The position numbers and the translations under genes were made by a program. Positions 557-9,053 of a stretch of 23,023 bases of DNA are shown one piece after another. The stretch's first letter is position 1. Each line of letters begins with the position of its first letter. Under the pieces are notes generated by a model that worked only from the letters and a program-made list of their open reading frames with translations, was not told the origin of the DNA and did no database searches. Origin of the DNA: a virus; the IMG/VR virus record IMGVR_UViG_3300049222_000652, positions 1 through 23,023 of that record; one strand, 5' to 3'.

Positions 557-587
557 ATATTATCTGTAGTATTTCGTATTTAATTTG
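557..587 (-). promoter_or_regulatory. Putative phage promoter, copy C of five
   Basis: Read leftward, this site has CAA, 6 nt, TACGAAA, 7 nt, AGATAATAT, the same spacing as copies at 1473-1503, 2016-2046, 2504-2534 and 2624-2654. It overlaps the 3' end of the 560-718 gene and ends 12 nt before the ATG of 353-544. The orientation toward the leftward genes is why it is read as a minus-strand promoter. The motif is seen; promoter activity is inferred. Confidence 0.6.
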
Positions 588-718
588 TTAAAGTATATAT
601 TATCAGAGCGAAACGCTAATTTATATTCTTTTACTAGTGTTATAGCTTCACGTCTACTTTCCGCCGTGTCTATTTCTTCATCACCGTGAAAGGTGTTTCT
701 ATATATTATTCTGTACAT
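560..718 (-). CDS. Small hypothetical protein (52 aa)
   Basis: A 52-codon leftward frame starts at ATG 718-716 and stops with TAA at 562-560. The product begins MYRIIYRNTFHGDEEIDTAE and ends LNTKYYR. A TAESRREAITLVKEY segment is likely helical, and the N-terminus looks like a beta strand, so a small alpha/beta fold is plausible. No family is assigned. It lies between 353-544 and 721-987 with two bases before the upstream stop, which fits the tight packing of this block. Its last codons overlap a promoter-like motif. Confidence 0.55.
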   Translation of the reverse strand: MYRIIYRNTFHGDEEIDTAESRREAITLVKEYKLAFRSDNIYFNKLNTKYYR

Positions 719-720
719 AA

Positions 721-987
721 TTAGTCTCCTTTATAGTTTAGTTCTTTATAAAATTTCGCTGCCGCTTTAGTATTTAGTTTATATTTGCGCTCGTATTTTA
801 CTCTATTATCTACGTAGTCCGCTATTTTATCTTTCATTTCATCTTCTGTATTTGTAGAAAACGACATAATGTGATACGGGTAGAAGTTGAAGTACTTACA
901 TGTATAGCAACTACGAGTGCTGCCGTCATAAATAGTACGTTGCTCGTACTCATAAGGTATAAGTTTGTGGTATCTTTTACTATTCAT
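721..987 (-). CDS. Small hypothetical protein with a CxxC pair (88 aa)
   Basis: This 88-residue leftward product begins MNSKRYHKLIPYEYEQRT. It contains one CYTC pair (residues 27-30), which could hold a metal only together with other ligands or a partner, since no second pair is present. The C-terminal half is Lys/Tyr-rich and likely helical. The start overlaps the end of the 980-1105 gene by eight bases. No Shine-Dalgarno sequence is seen. The family is not recognised; the gene call rests on length and operon packing. Confidence 0.6.
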   Translation of the reverse strand: MNSKRYHKLIPYEYEQRTIYDGSTRSCYTCKYFNFYPYHIMSFSTNTEDEMKDKIADYVDNRVKYERKYKLNTKAAAKFYKELNYKGD

Positions 988-1105
988 TGCATATATTTTT
1001 AAAGTTAGAGTAATAAGTTAATATTGTTTCTTGTTGATGTAAAGTACACGTAGTAAATCCAAACTCACCGAATACTTTTTGAGCTATTTTATCTAGTTCT
1101 TGCAT
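980..1105 (-). CDS. Very small hypothetical protein (41 aa)
   Basis: A 41-residue leftward frame from ATG 1105-1103 to TAG at 982-980. The product begins MQELDKIAQKVFGEFGFTTC and has one short amphipathic helix followed by a polar stretch. The start context AAATAATTATGC resembles its neighbours, and it overlaps the next gene by eight bases, filling what would otherwise be a gap between 721-987 and 1118-1312. No family is recognised. It could be chance, but the packing argues for a real gene. Confidence 0.5.
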   Translation of the reverse strand: MQELDKIAQKVFGEFGFTTCTLHQQETILTYYSNFKNICNE

Positions 1106-1117
1106 AATTATTTGTTT

Positions 1118-1312
1118 TTAGAATATTGAGTTAAATACTCTTTCATTTATAAAATCATAGTGTTCATCGTTGAGGTAATCTACCTCTTCTTCTGTTAGTT
1201 CTCTGCCGTCTATATCTGCTGATACTAAAAAGGCGTCTACAAAGTCTGGATAGTCAGAGAAGTCTACTCCTTCGAACTCCATATTTTCTATTTGTGATAA
1301 GTTTAATTGCAT
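1118..1312 (-). CDS. Small acidic hypothetical protein (64 aa)
   Basis: A 64-residue, strongly acidic leftward product (many Asp and Glu, few basic residues) beginning MQLNLSQIENMEFEGVDFSD, with TEEEVDYLNDEHYDF near the C-terminus. Such small acidic early phage proteins sometimes mimic DNA or bind host enzymes, but nothing here proves that. The ATG follows AAATAACT, the same context as other genes in the block, and lies two bases past the stop of 1315-1440. No known domain is recognised. Confidence 0.6.
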   Translation of the reverse strand: MQLNLSQIENMEFEGVDFSDYPDFVDAFLVSADIDGRELTEEEVDYLNDEHYDFINERVFNSIF

Positions 1313-1314
1313 AG

Positions 1315-1440
1315 TTATTTATTTTGATTAATGAATTCTTTTATTATATTTTCTAATTGTAGTGTTTGATTTGGTGTAATGTCACCACTTGTTAAATTGT
1401 AATCTTCACATATTGAAGTAAAATCTATATATTCTAGCAT
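1315..1440 (-). CDS. Very small hypothetical protein (41 aa)
   Basis: A 41-residue leftward frame from ATG 1440-1438 to TAA 1317-1315. The product begins MLEYIDFTSICEDYN and ends with a helical tail LENIIKEFINQNK. It follows a promoter-like motif (1473-1503) by about 33 nt, and its stop lies two bases before the ATG of the next gene, so the two are probably co-transcribed. The start context is AATACTATG. No family is recognised. Confidence 0.55.
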   Translation of the reverse strand: MLEYIDFTSICEDYNLTSGDITPNQTLQLENIIKEFINQNK

Positions 1441-1472
1441 AGTATTATTATTTTATTAGTTATTATTTTATT

Positions 1473-1503
1473 ATATTATCTTACTATTTTTGTATTTAAT
1501 TTG
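1473..1503 (-). promoter_or_regulatory. Putative phage promoter, copy D of five
   Basis: Read leftward it has CAA, 6 nt, TACAAAA, 7 nt, AGATAATAT, with one departure from consensus in the middle block (TACA instead of TACG). It lies about 33 nt upstream of the 1315-1440 start and just downstream of the 1511-1660 stop, in the gap where a new transcript would be expected. The motif is seen; activity is inferred. Confidence 0.55.
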
Positions 1504-1510
1504 TTTACTT

Positions 1511-1660
1511 TTAGCCATATATTCCAAATGAAGTTGGCACATTACCATTTGCAACCGCTATTAATACAACTAGTGAACCACTTATTATTAAAGTTAATGC
1601 GCTGTAAATCAACGAGTTAGATATAATATTTACTATTTTATTATGGTGAAATTTATACAT
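1511..1660 (-). CDS. Small single-pass membrane protein (49 aa)
   Basis: A 49-residue leftward frame from ATG 1660-1658 to TAA 1513-1511. Residues about 17-37 (LIYSALTLIISGSLVVLIAVA) form one clear hydrophobic helix, preceded by a short positively charged N-terminus (MYKFHHNK) that predicts the N-terminus stays in the cytoplasm. Small inner-membrane phage proteins can act in host takeover, superinfection exclusion or lysis control; which applies here cannot be told. The start context AAAAACTATG matches neighbours. The hydrophobic segment makes a chance frame less likely. Confidence 0.6.
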   Translation of the reverse strand: MYKFHHNKIVNIISNSLIYSALTLIISGSLVVLIAVANGNVPTSFGIYG

Positions 1661-1700
1661 AGTTTTTACTTGTTTAAAGGTGATTATTCGTTTAGTGATT

Positions 1701-1736
1701 AAAAACAGTGGAGAGCTATTATCCTACTCCCCACTG
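1701..1736 (-). terminator. Rho-independent terminator after the 1747-1974 gene
   Basis: Read leftward, a 10-bp stem (CAGTGGGGAG with CTCTCCACTG, one G-U pair) with an 11-nt loop is followed directly by TTTTT. On the plus strand the same stem has an A-C mismatch and no T run, so the terminator works leftward. It sits ten bases past the stop of the 1747-1974 gene. Confidence 0.8.
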
Positions 1737-1746
1737 CGTGAAGTAA

Positions 1747-1974
1747 TTAAATTATTACTTTATCTCTCAATATTACAGGTATTGAAGTGCTACTTGTATA
1801 GCTTTTGTACTTTTCGAAGCAAGGCATTGACTCAAGCTTACTTTTCATTATGTCATACACTTTATCATGATTATACTTTACTTGTTTTCCATTTTTGAAA
1901 GTGACTTCAATTACTTGGTTTTTTCCGATTAGTGATTTTCTTACAACGAAGCGTTTAGATTTTAGATTTTGCAT
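1747..1974 (-). CDS. Small phage protein, paralogue of 2234-2464 (75 aa)
   Basis: A 75-residue leftward protein starting MQNLKSKRFVVRKSLIGKNQ. It is clearly homologous to the product of 2234-2464: both share SKRFV.RKSLIGKNQ.IEVTF, YNHD, and CFEKYKSYTSSTS.PVILRD in the same order. The pattern suggests a small beta-rich N-terminal half, a central helix (KVYDIMKSKLES) and a conserved C-terminal segment. There is faint similarity to KTSC-type small domains (VTFKNG followed by a helix), not enough for assignment. It has its own promoter-like motif (2016-2046) and a strong terminator (1701-1736), so it is probably a single-gene unit. Function unknown. Confidence 0.75.
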   Translation of the reverse strand: MQNLKSKRFVVRKSLIGKNQVIEVTFKNGKQVKYNHDKVYDIMKSKLESMPCFEKYKSYTSSTSIPVILRDKVII

Positions 1975-2015
1975 AGTTAATTTATTTAAGTTATTATTAT
2001 TTTTTAGTTACATTA

Positions 2016-2046
2016 ATATTATCTGAATGGTTTCGTATTTTGTTTG
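2016..2046 (-). promoter_or_regulatory. Putative phage promoter, copy B of five
   Basis: Read leftward: CAA, 6 nt, TACGAAA, 7 nt, AGATAATAT. It ends about 41 nt before the ATG of the 1747-1974 gene and is preceded by a GCTATACAC box (2053-2061). The spacing of the three blocks is identical in all five copies. Confidence 0.65.
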
Positions 2047-2052
2047 ACGAGT

Positions 2053-2097
2053 GCTATACACGCAAGCGTTTTACGGCGAAGCGAAGATGCTATACAC
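2053..2097. repeat. Two GCTATACAC boxes
   Basis: The 9-mer GCTATACAC occurs at 2053-2061 and 2089-2097, and again at 2542-2550; a variant (GCTATACGC) lies at 2663-2671. Each lies next to GC-rich sequence in an otherwise AT-rich region, and three of the four lie just upstream (leftward sense) of the promoter-like motif. It could be a binding site for an activator or the edge of a duplicated cassette; neither is shown. Confidence 0.5.
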
Positions 2098-2114
2098 GAC
2101 GCCCTTCGGGCGCC
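2098..2114 (-). other. GC-rich hairpin beside a GCTATACAC box
   Basis: Read leftward it forms GGCGCCC, loop GAA, GGGCGTC: seven pairs including one G-U. On the plus strand that pair would be A-C, so the leftward RNA is the better folder. There is no following T run, so it is not a classic terminator. It lies between the structured element at 2130-2166 and the promoter at 2016-2046. Confidence 0.6.
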
Positions 2115-2129
2115 ATTATGTTGTAGGAC

Positions 2130-2166
2130 GGAGTCTACTCTTCCGACTCTATTTCAAAGTCAGGCT
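2130..2166 (-). ncRNA. Candidate structured RNA element, copy 1
   Basis: This 37-nt stretch matches 2576-2612, although the flanking bases differ. Read leftward, CCTGACT pairs with AGTCGG (one bulged T), then CGGAAGAGTAGACTCC follows, identical in both copies. The stem bases differ between the copies but stay paired (GACT/AGTC here, GGTT/GACC in copy 2). It lies outside any credible protein gene, 3' of the 2234-2464 gene and 5' of a promoter-like motif. It could be an independent small RNA, a 3' end element or a protein-binding leader. The conservation and pairing are seen; RNA function is inferred. Confidence 0.45.
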
Positions 2167-2175
2167 TTAATACTA

Positions 2176-2218
2176 TGACATTAGCCTCATAAGTTATATA
2201 AGTAAGAGGCTATTGTCA
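2176..2218. terminator. Long hairpin after the 2234-2464 gene
   Basis: TGACATTAGCCTC and GAGGCTATTGTCA form a 13-position stem with one mismatch and a 17-nt loop, 15 nt past the stop of the leftward gene 2234-2464. The T run (ATTTTT) follows it only on the plus strand, so it is best explained as a 3' hairpin of the leftward gene or as a rightward terminator for an unseen transcript. Confidence 0.5.
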
Positions 2219-2233
2219 CATTTTTAGTAATTA

Positions 2234-2464
2234 CTACACGAGTTGCTTATCGCGTAGTATTACTGGAACTGAAGTGCTTGAAGTATATGATTTGTATTTT
2301 TCAAAGCAGTTCATTTCATTTAGTTTGTCTTTCATTATTTCGTAAGCTAAATCATGATTGTATGTAAATGTTTTACCTGATTTAAATGTTACTTCAATGA
2401 TTTGATTTTTTCCGATTAAAGATTTTCTAATGACGAATCTTTTTGATTGAATTGAATTTTGCAT
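2234..2464 (-). CDS. Small phage protein, paralogue of 1747-1974 (76 aa)
   Basis: A 76-residue leftward protein beginning MQNSIQSKRFVIRKSLIGKN, closely similar over its whole length to the product of 1747-1974. The C-terminal CFEKYKSYTSSTSVPVILRD is nearly unchanged, while the central YNHDLAYEIMKDKLNEMN differs more. The conserved Phe, Tyr and Ser/Thr-rich tail is probably functional. The leader is AT-rich, and the promoter-like motif at 2504-2534 ends 39 nt upstream. The arrangement promoter, gene, hairpin repeats that of the paralogue, so the cassette was duplicated as a unit. No function is known to me for this family. Confidence 0.75.
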   Translation of the reverse strand: MQNSIQSKRFVIRKSLIGKNQIIEVTFKSGKTFTYNHDLAYEIMKDKLNEMNCFEKYKSYTSSTSVPVILRDKQLV

Positions 2465-2503
2465 AGTATTTATTATTTATTAATTATTAAGTTATTTACA
2501 AAT

Positions 2504-2534
2504 ATATTATCTTAGTACTTCCGTAAAAAGCTTG
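2504..2534 (-). promoter_or_regulatory. Putative phage promoter, copy A of five
   Basis: Read leftward: CAA, 6 nt, TACGGAA, 7 nt, AGATAATAT, followed by ATTTG. The sequence TATATTTG fits the Bacteroidota -7 consensus TAnnTTTG, so a host-type sigma factor could read it. It ends 39 nt before the start of 2234-2464. Confidence 0.65.
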
Positions 2535-2541
2535 ACAGAAT

Positions 2542-2564
2542 GCTATACACCCCCCAGGGGGGGG
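2542..2564. repeat. GCTATACAC box joined to a C6-A-G8 palindrome
   Basis: GCTATACAC (2542-2550) runs into six Cs, one A and eight Gs (2550-2564). The block can fold as a short GC hairpin on either strand. It takes the same position as the hairpin at 2098-2114 relative to the box, promoter and structured element. Homopolymer runs like this are rare in such AT-rich DNA and could vary in length. Confidence 0.55.
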
Positions 2565-2568
2565 CGGC

Positions 2569-2616
2569 GTACAGTGGAGTCTACTCTTCCGGTCTTGTCT
2601 CAGAACCAGGCTGTAC
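2569..2616 (-). ncRNA. Candidate structured RNA element, copy 2
   Basis: Read leftward, an outer stem GTACAG/CTGTAC (2616-2611 with 2574-2569) encloses a second stem, CCTGGTT with GACCGG (one bulged T, one T-G pair), and the conserved CGGAAGAGTAGACTCC. The predicted start site of the promoter at 2624-2654 falls at about 2617, at the foot of the outer stem, so a transcript could begin with this structure. The pair that is T-G on the leftward strand would be C-A on the other, which favours the leftward RNA. It may be a free small RNA or the leader of 2234-2464. Confidence 0.5.
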
Positions 2617-2623
2617 TACAATA

Positions 2624-2654
2624 ATATTATCCTACAACTACCGTAAAACCCTTG
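2624..2654 (-). promoter_or_regulatory. Putative phage promoter, copy E of five
   Basis: Read leftward: CAA, 6 nt, TACGGTA, 7 nt, GGATAATAT. No protein gene starts within 150 nt. Its immediate downstream sequence is the structured element at 2569-2616, which makes this promoter the main reason to suspect a non-coding transcript. A GCTATACGC box lies 8 nt further upstream. Confidence 0.6.
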
Positions 2655-2900
2655 AAGAGTATGCTATACGCCCTGGCGGGCGGGGGCTAAAACGTAAAAA
2701 ATCTAGAGGTTTTATGTAAAACGGCCAGGGGCTGGGCAAAAATGTTTAACTTTGGCAAGTGGGCTATGTCAATATTTTTCTATATATAACACTTTACTTC
2801 TCTATTTCTAACAAAAAAGATGACACAAGCGTTATAAGTATTATAAGTAATAGGCAAATGTCACGTTTAAATAGCAAATTAACCAAGTGATTATAAAAAT
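2655..2900. other. Divergent intergenic region between leftward and rightward blocks
   Basis: No credible protein gene is seen here. It holds a GCTATACGC box with a GCCC-TGGC-GGGC hairpin (2663-2681), a second GC island GGCCAGGGGCTGGGC (2722-2736), GTAAAAC/CGTAAAA direct repeats, an AT-rich tract around 2771-2792 that could carry a rightward promoter (TCTATATATAAC), and a segment at 2821-2863 whose TGACA...TGTCA ends and TTATAAGTA repeats resemble the hairpin at 2176-2218. It is the natural place for divergent promoters or other control elements. That role is inferred. Confidence 0.4.
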
Positions 2901-4090: not shown

Positions 4091-5656
4091 ATGGAATTTA
4101 ATAACCCTAGTCAGATAGTTAAAGATCTGACATTTGGCGATGCAGCCAACAGTAAAATAATGTCAGGCGTCGAAAAATTAACAAGCGCAGTAAAGAGTAC
4201 TTTAGGTGCTTCTGGAAAATGCGTAATTTATGAAGACGCACTTGGCCGACCGGTAATTACAAAAGACGGAGTAACCGTTGCAGAAAGCGTAGTCTTGATA
4301 GACCCGGTCGAAAATATTGGAGCAACCTTAATTAAAGAGGCTGCTGCTAACACAGTAAGAGAAGCAGGTGACGGTACTACTACAGCTACCGTTCTTGCTT
4401 ATTCTATATTAAAAAGTATAAACGATTCAGATAATGAAGAAACGATTAGAGACATTAAAGCTGGCATTTATAAATGTAGCGAAAAAGTTATGGTTTATCT
4501 TAATAAAACCAGTATACCGGTTAAAAATAAAATGCTCAAAGAAGTTGCTGCAATATCATGTAACAACGACAAAGAGCTTGGAGGCAAAATTGGAGAAGCT
4601 TATGAAAAAGTTGGAAAAGATGGAGTCGTTTTAATGGAAGAGTCCGAGACAAACGAAACTTATGTTGAGTTTGTTGATGGCGTTCAATTTGATTCTAGAC
4701 TAAAATCTCCACACTTAGCTACAGATAAAGAAAAATCTGTTTGTACGTTAGATAATCCTTATGTTCTTTTAGTTTCTTCGCCAATACCAAATATTAGAAA
4801 AATACAAAGTGTATTGGAGTTTGTTATTAAAAATAAAAAACCACTACTTATTGTAGCAGATGTAGAGCATCAACCATACGCAACTCTTATTGCTAATAAA
4901 GTTAAAGGTAATATTAAGGTTAACGTAGTAGATCCTCCTGGCTTTGGCCCAACAAAACTACAGTCTATGGAAGACTTAGCGTTTCTAACTGGAGCTAAAC
5001 TCATGAATGAAGAGCTAGGCGATGATTTAGATCTTATAGAGCCATCTGTTTTAGGTAAAGCAGTAAAAGCTGTTACAGATAATAGCAATACTGTTTTACA
5101 AGTAGAAGACAAAGGTGATGAGTTAAGCGATCGTATAGAAGATGTAAAGAAAAGTATAAAAGAAGAAACTAATGGATTCTTTAAGAAAAAGCTCGAGCAG
5201 CGCCTTGCAATGTTATCCGGTGTTGTCGGTATTATCAAAGTTGGTGCTGACAGTAAGGTAGAGCTCAAAGAAAAGAAAGATAGAGTTGAAGACGCTATAT
5301 ACGCTACTAAAGCAGCATTAAAAGAAGGTATTGTTGCTGGTGGAGGAGTTGCTTTATTAAACGCGGCTCAAAATGTTAAAGCAAATTCTACTGGTGAAAA
5401 AATATTACTTGAAGCCATTAAGGCCCCTTATAAAACTATACTTAGTAATGCTGGTATAGAAGAAAAATATTTTGACAGAAAAAACACTGGACTAGATGTT
5501 AAAACTGGCTTAAAAGTAAATATGATTAAACACGGTATTATAGACCCGGTTTTGGTTACAAAATCGGCGCTAAAAAATGCCGTAAGTGTTGCTACTACAA
5601 TTGTTTCAGCAGACTGTATAATAAGTAATAAAAGATTAGAAGATGCAAGCAATTAA
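4091..5656 (+). CDS. groEL: Phage-encoded chaperonin GroEL (Cpn60)
   Basis: The product is 521 residues and aligns along the whole GroEL fold. It forms a double-ring ATPase cage that folds proteins in the cytoplasm together with GroES. Equatorial motifs are intact: TLG at 37-39, TKDGVTVAES from 57, DGTTT at 94-98, RVEDAIYATKAA with catalytic Asp at 401, VAGGGVALL at 415-423, IIDP at 483-486. The apical domain (about 185-370) is divergent: where E. coli has YLSPYF, this protein has LKSPHL, and Gln239 stands where E. coli has Leu234, both in the substrate and GroES binding groove. The C-terminal Gly-Gly-Met tail is absent. It is followed by groES with a 14-nt overlap. Phage chaperonins are known but uncommon. 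Confidence 0.96.
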   Translation: MEFNNPSQIVKDLTFGDAANSKIMSGVEKLTSAVKSTLGASGKCVIYEDALGRPVITKDGVTVAESVVLIDPVENIGATLIKEAAANTVREAGDGTTTATVLAYSILKSINDSDNEETIRDIKAGIYKCSEKVMVYLNKTSIPVKNKMLKEVAAISCNNDKELGGKIGEAYEKVGKDGVVLMEESETNETYVEFVDGVQFDSRLKSPHLATDKEKSVCTLDNPYVLLVSSPIPNIRKIQSVLEFVIKNKKPLLIVADVEHQPYATLIANKVKGNIKVNVVDPPGFGPTKLQSMEDLAFLTGAKLMNEELGDDLDLIEPSVLGKAVKAVTDNSNTVLQVEDKGDELSDRIEDVKKSIKEETNGFFKKKLEQRLAMLSGVVGIIKVGADSKVELKEKKDRVEDAIYATKAALKEGIVAGGGVALLNAAQNVKANSTGEKILLEAIKAPYKTILSNAGIEEKYFDRKNTGLDVKTGLKVNMIKHGIIDPVLVTKSALKNAVSVATTIVSADCIISNKRLEDASN

Positions 5657-8657: not shown

Positions 8658-9053
8658 ATGAAAACACTAATTTTAACCTTAAGCTTGTTTTTTTCAAGCT
8701 TTTTAGTAAACCCAGAAGTAAAAACAGAATTTAAATCAAATGGTTTTTTAGGAAGCTGGCACAGTGATGGAAGCGATTACTCAATGTTGATAACTGAAAA
8801 AAATGGACAATTAGAAATATATAATTATTTTTTTAACAAATCAGTTGTTGACAATATAAAAAAAGTAGAATTACACACTGTAGAGGAAAAAGTAGTTAGG
8901 TTTACTAGAAAAAGAATGAAAACAACTATATTTTATGTAGAAAACAACCACAGAGTACAAGTAAAGTATAAGTTAATTAATGAAACTAAAATGAAAGCCA
9001 TTTTCAAAGGCGATTGGAATGGTACTATATATTATAACAAACAAAACAATTAA
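8658..9053 (+). CDS. Exported protein of unknown function (131 aa)
   Basis: The N-terminus MKTLILTLSLFFSSFLVNPE is a good secretion signal (short positive start, hydrophobic core residues 4-17, no lipobox Cys). The mature part of about 110 residues looks all-beta: FLGSWHSDGSDYSMLITEKN, then strands with YNYFFNK, VVRFTRKRMKTTIFYV and a closing GDWNGTIYYNK. Such small beta proteins with a GxW near the N-terminus recall lipocalin-like exported proteins of Bacteroidota; that is only a pattern similarity. The gene has its own upstream gap with a promoter-like box. In a phage, an exported product could alter the host surface or block superinfection (inference), and a gene gained from the host is also possible. 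Confidence 0.65.
   Translation: MKTLILTLSLFFSSFLVNPEVKTEFKSNGFLGSWHSDGSDYSMLITEKNGQLEIYNYFFNKSVVDNIKKVELHTVEEKVVRFTRKRMKTTIFYVENNHRVQVKYKLINETKMKAIFKGDWNGTIYYNKQNN

Follow-up and report, generated by a model that had tools for sequence, protein, structure and literature searches.

Promoter-like sites of the window

The stretch of DNA analyzed here (the window) is the virus record IMGVR_UViG_3300049222_000652 of 23,023 nucleotides (nt), a fragment of a marine phage. Leftward genes lie at about 0.1–2.5 kb and rightward genes, including those of a GroEL-like protein and structural proteins, from 2.9 kb on, and the window ends about 2.5 kb from the divergent junction. Five sites on the minus strand (copies A–E; Table 1) share a three-block element, and four of them stand 12–41 nt before a start codon; a preliminary description of the window had given the same positions, strand and distances.

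The spacing of the blocks had to be corrected. The earlier pattern (CAA, 6 nt, TACGRAA, 7 nt, RGATAATAT) was one base too long and gave no matches even at three mismatches, the true gap being 7 nt before GATAATAT, or 6 nt before RGATAATAT. Also its middle block held for three of the five copies, copy B having TACAAAA and copy E TACGGTA. The corrected consensus, CAA-N6-TACRRWA-N7-GATAATAT, had exactly five matches in the window at two or fewer mismatches, all of them exact. The earlier proposal of a comparison with shuffled sequence was carried out on the window, and its dinucleotide shuffles contained on average 0.02 matches and at most one. The five sites are real and non-random. They are not fully independent, because copies C and D precede duplicated genes: the gene and its 5' region are present as two 202-nt copies that are 71% identical.

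With a matrix trained only on the sites of 61 relatives, the five sites were the sole window matches scoring at least 5. The best matches in block shuffles of the window, scored with the same matrix, averaged 8.3 and reached 17.2 at most, so that copy D is borderline and copy E not significant alone by the matrix. Copy D has a variant box with TTTT for AAAA and carries TATATTTG downstream, and copy A overlaps the 3' end of a small open reading frame (ORF) at 560–718.

Table 1. Positions of the promoter-like sites and associated features in the window.
Feature	Position	Strand	Predicted +1	Matrix score	Placement
Promoter copy A	557–587	-	552	26.3	before ORF 353–544, gap 12 nt
Promoter copy B	1473–1503	-	1468	24.0	before ORF 1315–1440 of 41 amino acids (sequence reading), gap 32 nt
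Promoter copy C	2016–2046	-	2011	28.8	before ORF 1747–1974, gap 41 nt
Promoter copy D	2504–2534	-	2499	12.5	before ORF 2234–2464, gap 39 nt
Promoter-like copy E	2624–2654	-	2619	6.5	no own ORF before copy D; weakest member
Dyad element TGACA...TGTCA	2820–2864				divergent junction, upstream of first rightward gene (2901)
Dyad element, second copy	2175–2219				between ORF 2234–2464 and promoter C
First early protein, 76 amino acids	2234–2464	-			kept behind the promoter in relatives; paralogue 1747–1974

The element in uncultured relatives

Relatives of the gene of 76 amino acids (aa) that follows copy D were found in 78 loci, and the same kind of element was present upstream of nearly all of those displayed; two of the 78 had no GATAAT within 180 nt. 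The consensus of 160 non-redundant sites from the uncultured relatives was TTACAAACAAAATACGAA-N6-TTGGATAATATAA, and also in these relatives the element adjoins the divergent junction. In 2.04 Mb of loci, 410 matches scored at least 15 (training sites included), compared to one for the reversed matrix. GATAAT had been the anchor of the matrix training, and the spacing was retested with the upstream box alone: GATAAT stood at its fixed place in 77 of the 79 box matches, and the backwards box had no matches. All 26 relatives picked by the 76-aa gene (24) or by the terminase (2) carried matches, summing up to 189 at one mismatch or less against 21 for the backwards control. The search of relatives suggested earlier has recovered hundreds of copies.

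In the 78 loci L086–L163, all 398 matches scoring at least 18 were on the strand of the early gene, and in five records joined from stretches all 41 matches of this score lay on the early strand, within 4.9–13.2 kb beside the junction. Three of these 41 fell within ORFs of at least 60 aa, such ORFs covering 91–92%.

In 80 terminase loci (828,231 bases) no match scored at least 15. The related Flavobacterium, Cellulophaga and Tenacibaculum phages MW202828, elemoA, phi38:1, phi18:3 and Gundel_1, the last three scanned in part, gave best scores near those of the reversed control. One phi18:3 match of 15.1 (control best 9.7) was read as chance. In MW202828 (L164) the early genes at 43.8–50 kb are preceded instead by a repeated perfect palindrome, GTGTCGTTAACGACAC. 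One record of 129,537 bases (G015), twice the usual length, contained 20 promoter matches in forward orientation and a pair of sigma genes separated by about 62 kb; it is probably a head-to-tail assembly of one genome.

Start-site register

At the position 12 nt downstream of the G in GATAAT, 419 of 777 distinct sites had A, 348 G, 10 T and none C, i.e. 767 had a purine. The first ATG opening at least 30 codons began exactly at this base in 93 sites and earlier in 22. Because the leaderless ATGs peak exactly there, GATAAT was placed at -12 to -7 and the purine at +1; also the G of the sigma28 (FliA) -10 element falls at -12. The predicted +1 bases of copies A–E are A, A, G, G and G, respectively. 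An ATG at +10, often as ATGTAA, i.e. a start followed by a stop codon, was present in 254 of 776 promoter sites (relatives L086–L305).

Fixed spacing, a single strand, restriction to the early arm, a fixed purine at leaderless starts and hundreds of copies together strongly support the preliminary reading of the sites as a phage promoter class. No description of the class was recognised among open-licence papers, so that one may have been published elsewhere. Dedicated promoters that belong to phage sigma factors are already known; for the present class the pairing with a sigma factor is a proposed one.

A linked sigma70-family gene

Pfam flagged sigma70 region 2 in one protein of the relative G001, and the relatives of this protein are sigma factors of about 250 aa. 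The protein matches PHROG 351, and Sigma70_r4 was above the cut-off in one copy of it. In a profile search of PDB the best match of the phage sigma was FliA (1.3e-10), and also the top matches of a fold search were sigma factors, the model being of moderate confidence (predicted local distance difference test score 72.6, predicted template modelling score 0.43). Sequence and fold, with regions 2 and 4, place the protein in the sigma70 family. The phage collection contained no cultured phage with a match to this sigma. The reading frame of the gene is broken in G001 (58338–59098) and G004 (35215–35968), by sequencing error or decay.

The gene was present in 24 of the 26 motif-bearing records and in none of the five related phages without the motif. 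In the two motif-bearing records without it the sequence stops 7.6 and 4.2 kb past the first early gene; sigma usually lies 8.1 kb downstream of that gene (range 5.6–9.5 in 27 loci). Nine of 34 further records had the gene. The silence of the other 25 says little, because these loci run 6.3 kb or less past the early gene. They include L088, the locus with the copy most like copy D of the window, so that for the lineage to which the window belongs we infer a sigma of this kind. Motif distance was correlated with sigma distance (Mantel r 0.25, p 0.007, n 27, these being from the 78 loci and later ones), also in a partial test against the 76-aa protein (r 0.19, p 0.044, n 27).

Proposed reader of the promoters

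The chance that a phage-encoded sigma factor reads these promoters is estimated as roughly even (about 0.5). The five sites would then be true promoters of one phage-specific class, with an upstream box around ACAAACAAAATACG at about -36 to -23 and a -10 element GGATAATAT in the register given above. From them, small genes of the early arm next to the divergent junction would be transcribed with a short leader or none. The reader would be the host RNA polymerase core together with a FliA-like sigma70-family factor of about 250 aa, encoded in the same arm but outside the window, as judged from the complete relatives. The earlier suggestion of a phage-encoded factor outside the window agrees with the sigma70-family gene that relatives carry downstream, about 8 kb from the first early gene, while the host RNA polymerase remains its main rival. 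Sequence comparison has established the element with its spacing, strand and register, its restriction to one arm and its occurrence together with the sigma gene. We infer that the element drives transcription, that it does so through this sigma, that the phage of the window also encodes the sigma, and that the first sigma molecules come from read-through or a different promoter.

The closest parallels are phages phiEco32 and 7-11 (excerpt of PMC8948821), likewise podoviruses whose genomes have divergent arms and encode a sigma70-family factor of their own. The sigma of 7-11 has region 4 and a two-part consensus, GTAAtg-(16)-aCTA (same excerpt). As in these phages, a sigma70-family gene (here in the relatives) goes together with a conserved promoter class unlike the host consensus. 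The present class differs in sequence and in its 14-bp upstream box, and whereas the phiEco32 and 7-11 sigma promoters precede middle and late genes, it was found in the early arm only.

Several observations weigh against a phage sigma as the reader. The early genes of phiEco32 and 7-11 are read by host sigma70 (PMC8948821, excerpt), and the genes next to the junction, being small and variable, resemble immediate-early ones. Sigma28 promoters, TAAAGTTT-n11-GCCGATAA (excerpt of PMC2859248), have the core GATAA in common with the present sites, a point for a FliA-like reader, but here no GCC precedes the core, the upstream box is not matched by the -35 TAAAGTTT, and no flagellar genes are involved. 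Motif and sigma have been seen together in one clade, in which they could have come together just once. Their distances correlate weakly, least of all through sigma region 2 (partial 0.07). In G001 the 3 kb upstream of the sigma gene contain no motif copy, so that this gene needs another start. A dyad element (Table 1; see below) co-occurs with the sigma in the clade, as far as looked, just like the promoter motif does. Also host chromosomes, in which the phage sigma is lacking, carry a few excellent motif copies; good copies are rare in flavobacterial chromosomes or contigs (L320, L321, L322, L323, L326, L327).

The next most probable reading, which we regard as possible though not favoured, is that the sites are immediate-early promoters which unmodified host RNA polymerase reads with sigma-A or some other factor of the host. 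They would then be a strong variant that departs from the known flavobacterial consensus, leaving later genes to the phage sigma, perhaps near the dyad, which has copies close to the sigma gene and to the late-arm start. The position of the sites at the divergent junction before small genes would suit this, as would the host sigma70 use by the early genes of phiEco32 and 7-11. In Flavobacterium, the mapped start sites had variants of TAnnTTTG or belonged to one of three further classes (excerpt of PMC9723704). The sigma-A promoters of Flavobacterium psychrophilum (same excerpt) and the present sites share an AT-rich -10 region in the same place, but the TTTG part is missing from nearly all sites here: GATAATAT stands at the GATAAT register instead of TAnnTTTG at -12 to -5, and at the next possible register, the best one, only four of 776 sites were perfect and 125 had one mismatch. 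Copies D and E of the window approach TAnnTTTG. Copy A had been described as the only one fitting sigma-A well, but it has, like B and C, at least three mismatches to TTG-N17-23-TAnnTTTG; copy D comes nearest to the host promoter, with one mismatch and TATATTTG, and copy E has two. The failure to find the element in the related Flavobacterium, Cellulophaga and Tenacibaculum phages speaks against host reading as well.

The copies in host genomes bear on this question in both directions. In three genomes (G029, G030, G112) a copy precedes a small secreted protein of one gene family, as could be expected if host machinery reads the element; the G112 protein is weakly similar (27% identity) to window ORF 8658–9053. 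In G028 a copy stands before a TerB-domain gene beside parAB-like genes, in G027 after a tRNA-like sequence, and in G035 before a leaderless ORF. Host use is rare, which argues against host reading: one model (R1) matched four of 120 genomes and a pattern five of 199, both samples having been built around a genome first selected by the motif itself, and a large host regulon was rejected. Looser patterns gave 11 matches against three in the control among 60 relatives of G029 and 10 against six among 60 relatives of G035, so that most host matches with two mismatches are near background. No host copy of the phage sigma was seen: the sigma query P0001 matched none of five genomes, and the sigma profile matched seven of ten weakly, in the region-4 part of 287–303-aa frames taken for host sigma factors. 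The host copies may be phage-derived, or a sign that host machinery reads the element. It is quite improbable that the chromosomal TerB-domain, secreted-protein and leaderless genes have borrowed the phage promoter as an infection sensor, switched on by the sigma of an invading phage.

An arrangement like that of the T4 middle promoters, with a host sigma reading the -10 element and a phage activator binding the upstream box instead of a -35 element, is considered unlikely. T4 middle promoters (excerpt of PMC2988021) have an upstream element centred near -30, the MotA box, and a TATAAT-like -10, and the box at about -36 to -23 is similarly centred, but its sequence is unrelated to the MotA box. 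Of the 25 Pfam families displayed for the 61 proteins of one relative, none was MotA- or AsiA-like, and the -10 element is not that of the host.

Virion-carried polymerases are known from phage N4 and the crAss-like phage phi14:2. Such an enzyme as the reader of the sites is very improbable: the late arm of the relatives encodes giant proteins of 2,435–3,859 aa, but the MW202828 giant protein had no PDB match, those of MW202828 and G001 had no Pfam polymerase family, motif scans of giant proteins gave no convincing catalytic set, and the two-part -35/-10 layout suits a sigma-type enzyme. That the sites are no promoters at all but a repeated protein-binding or packaging signal is hardly credible, since their orientation is always that of the following gene and the start base coincides with leaderless ATGs.

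To our knowledge, little is known of the organisation of transcription in Bacteroidota phages, whose hosts have an unusual primary sigma factor. For one uncultured marine phage lineage a sharp promoter consensus is now at hand in hundreds of instances, together with a predicted base for the start and a linked gene for a sigma factor, so that the pairing of sigma and promoter is directly testable in vitro. If true, it would provide a phage-sigma-inducible promoter for flavobacterial genetics.

Dyad element

The full dyad, TGTGACAWTAG...CTAWTGTCACA, spans 44–48 bp and is present also in many relatives, with 336 distinct strings in the clade (both orientations counted) against two for permuted arms. 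Its copies lie at the divergent junction, close to the sigma gene, within the early arm and where the late arm starts; neither MW202828 nor elemoA had a match. The dyad is possibly an operator or a late promoter.

The window and its phage relatives

Terminase and portal of the window match PHROGs 6681 and 6547, respectively. A related terminase was found in 89 records of the phage collection, mostly Flavobacterium elemo and Cellulophaga phages, the best being MW202828 (62.7%). By these sequence matches the window phage is related to Flavobacterium and Cellulophaga podoviruses. The 76-aa gene had no match in the cultured phages of the same collection, and the fold search with a confident model of its protein gave no useful match. 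The GroEL-like gene (4091–5656) stands at the start of the rightward arm, and chaperonin genes are present also in the annotated relatives MW202828, elemoA and phi38:1. Directly upstream of copies C, D and E, at 2084–2111, 2537–2564 and 2658–2685, the window has ATGCTATACRC repeats with GC-rich hairpin-like runs.

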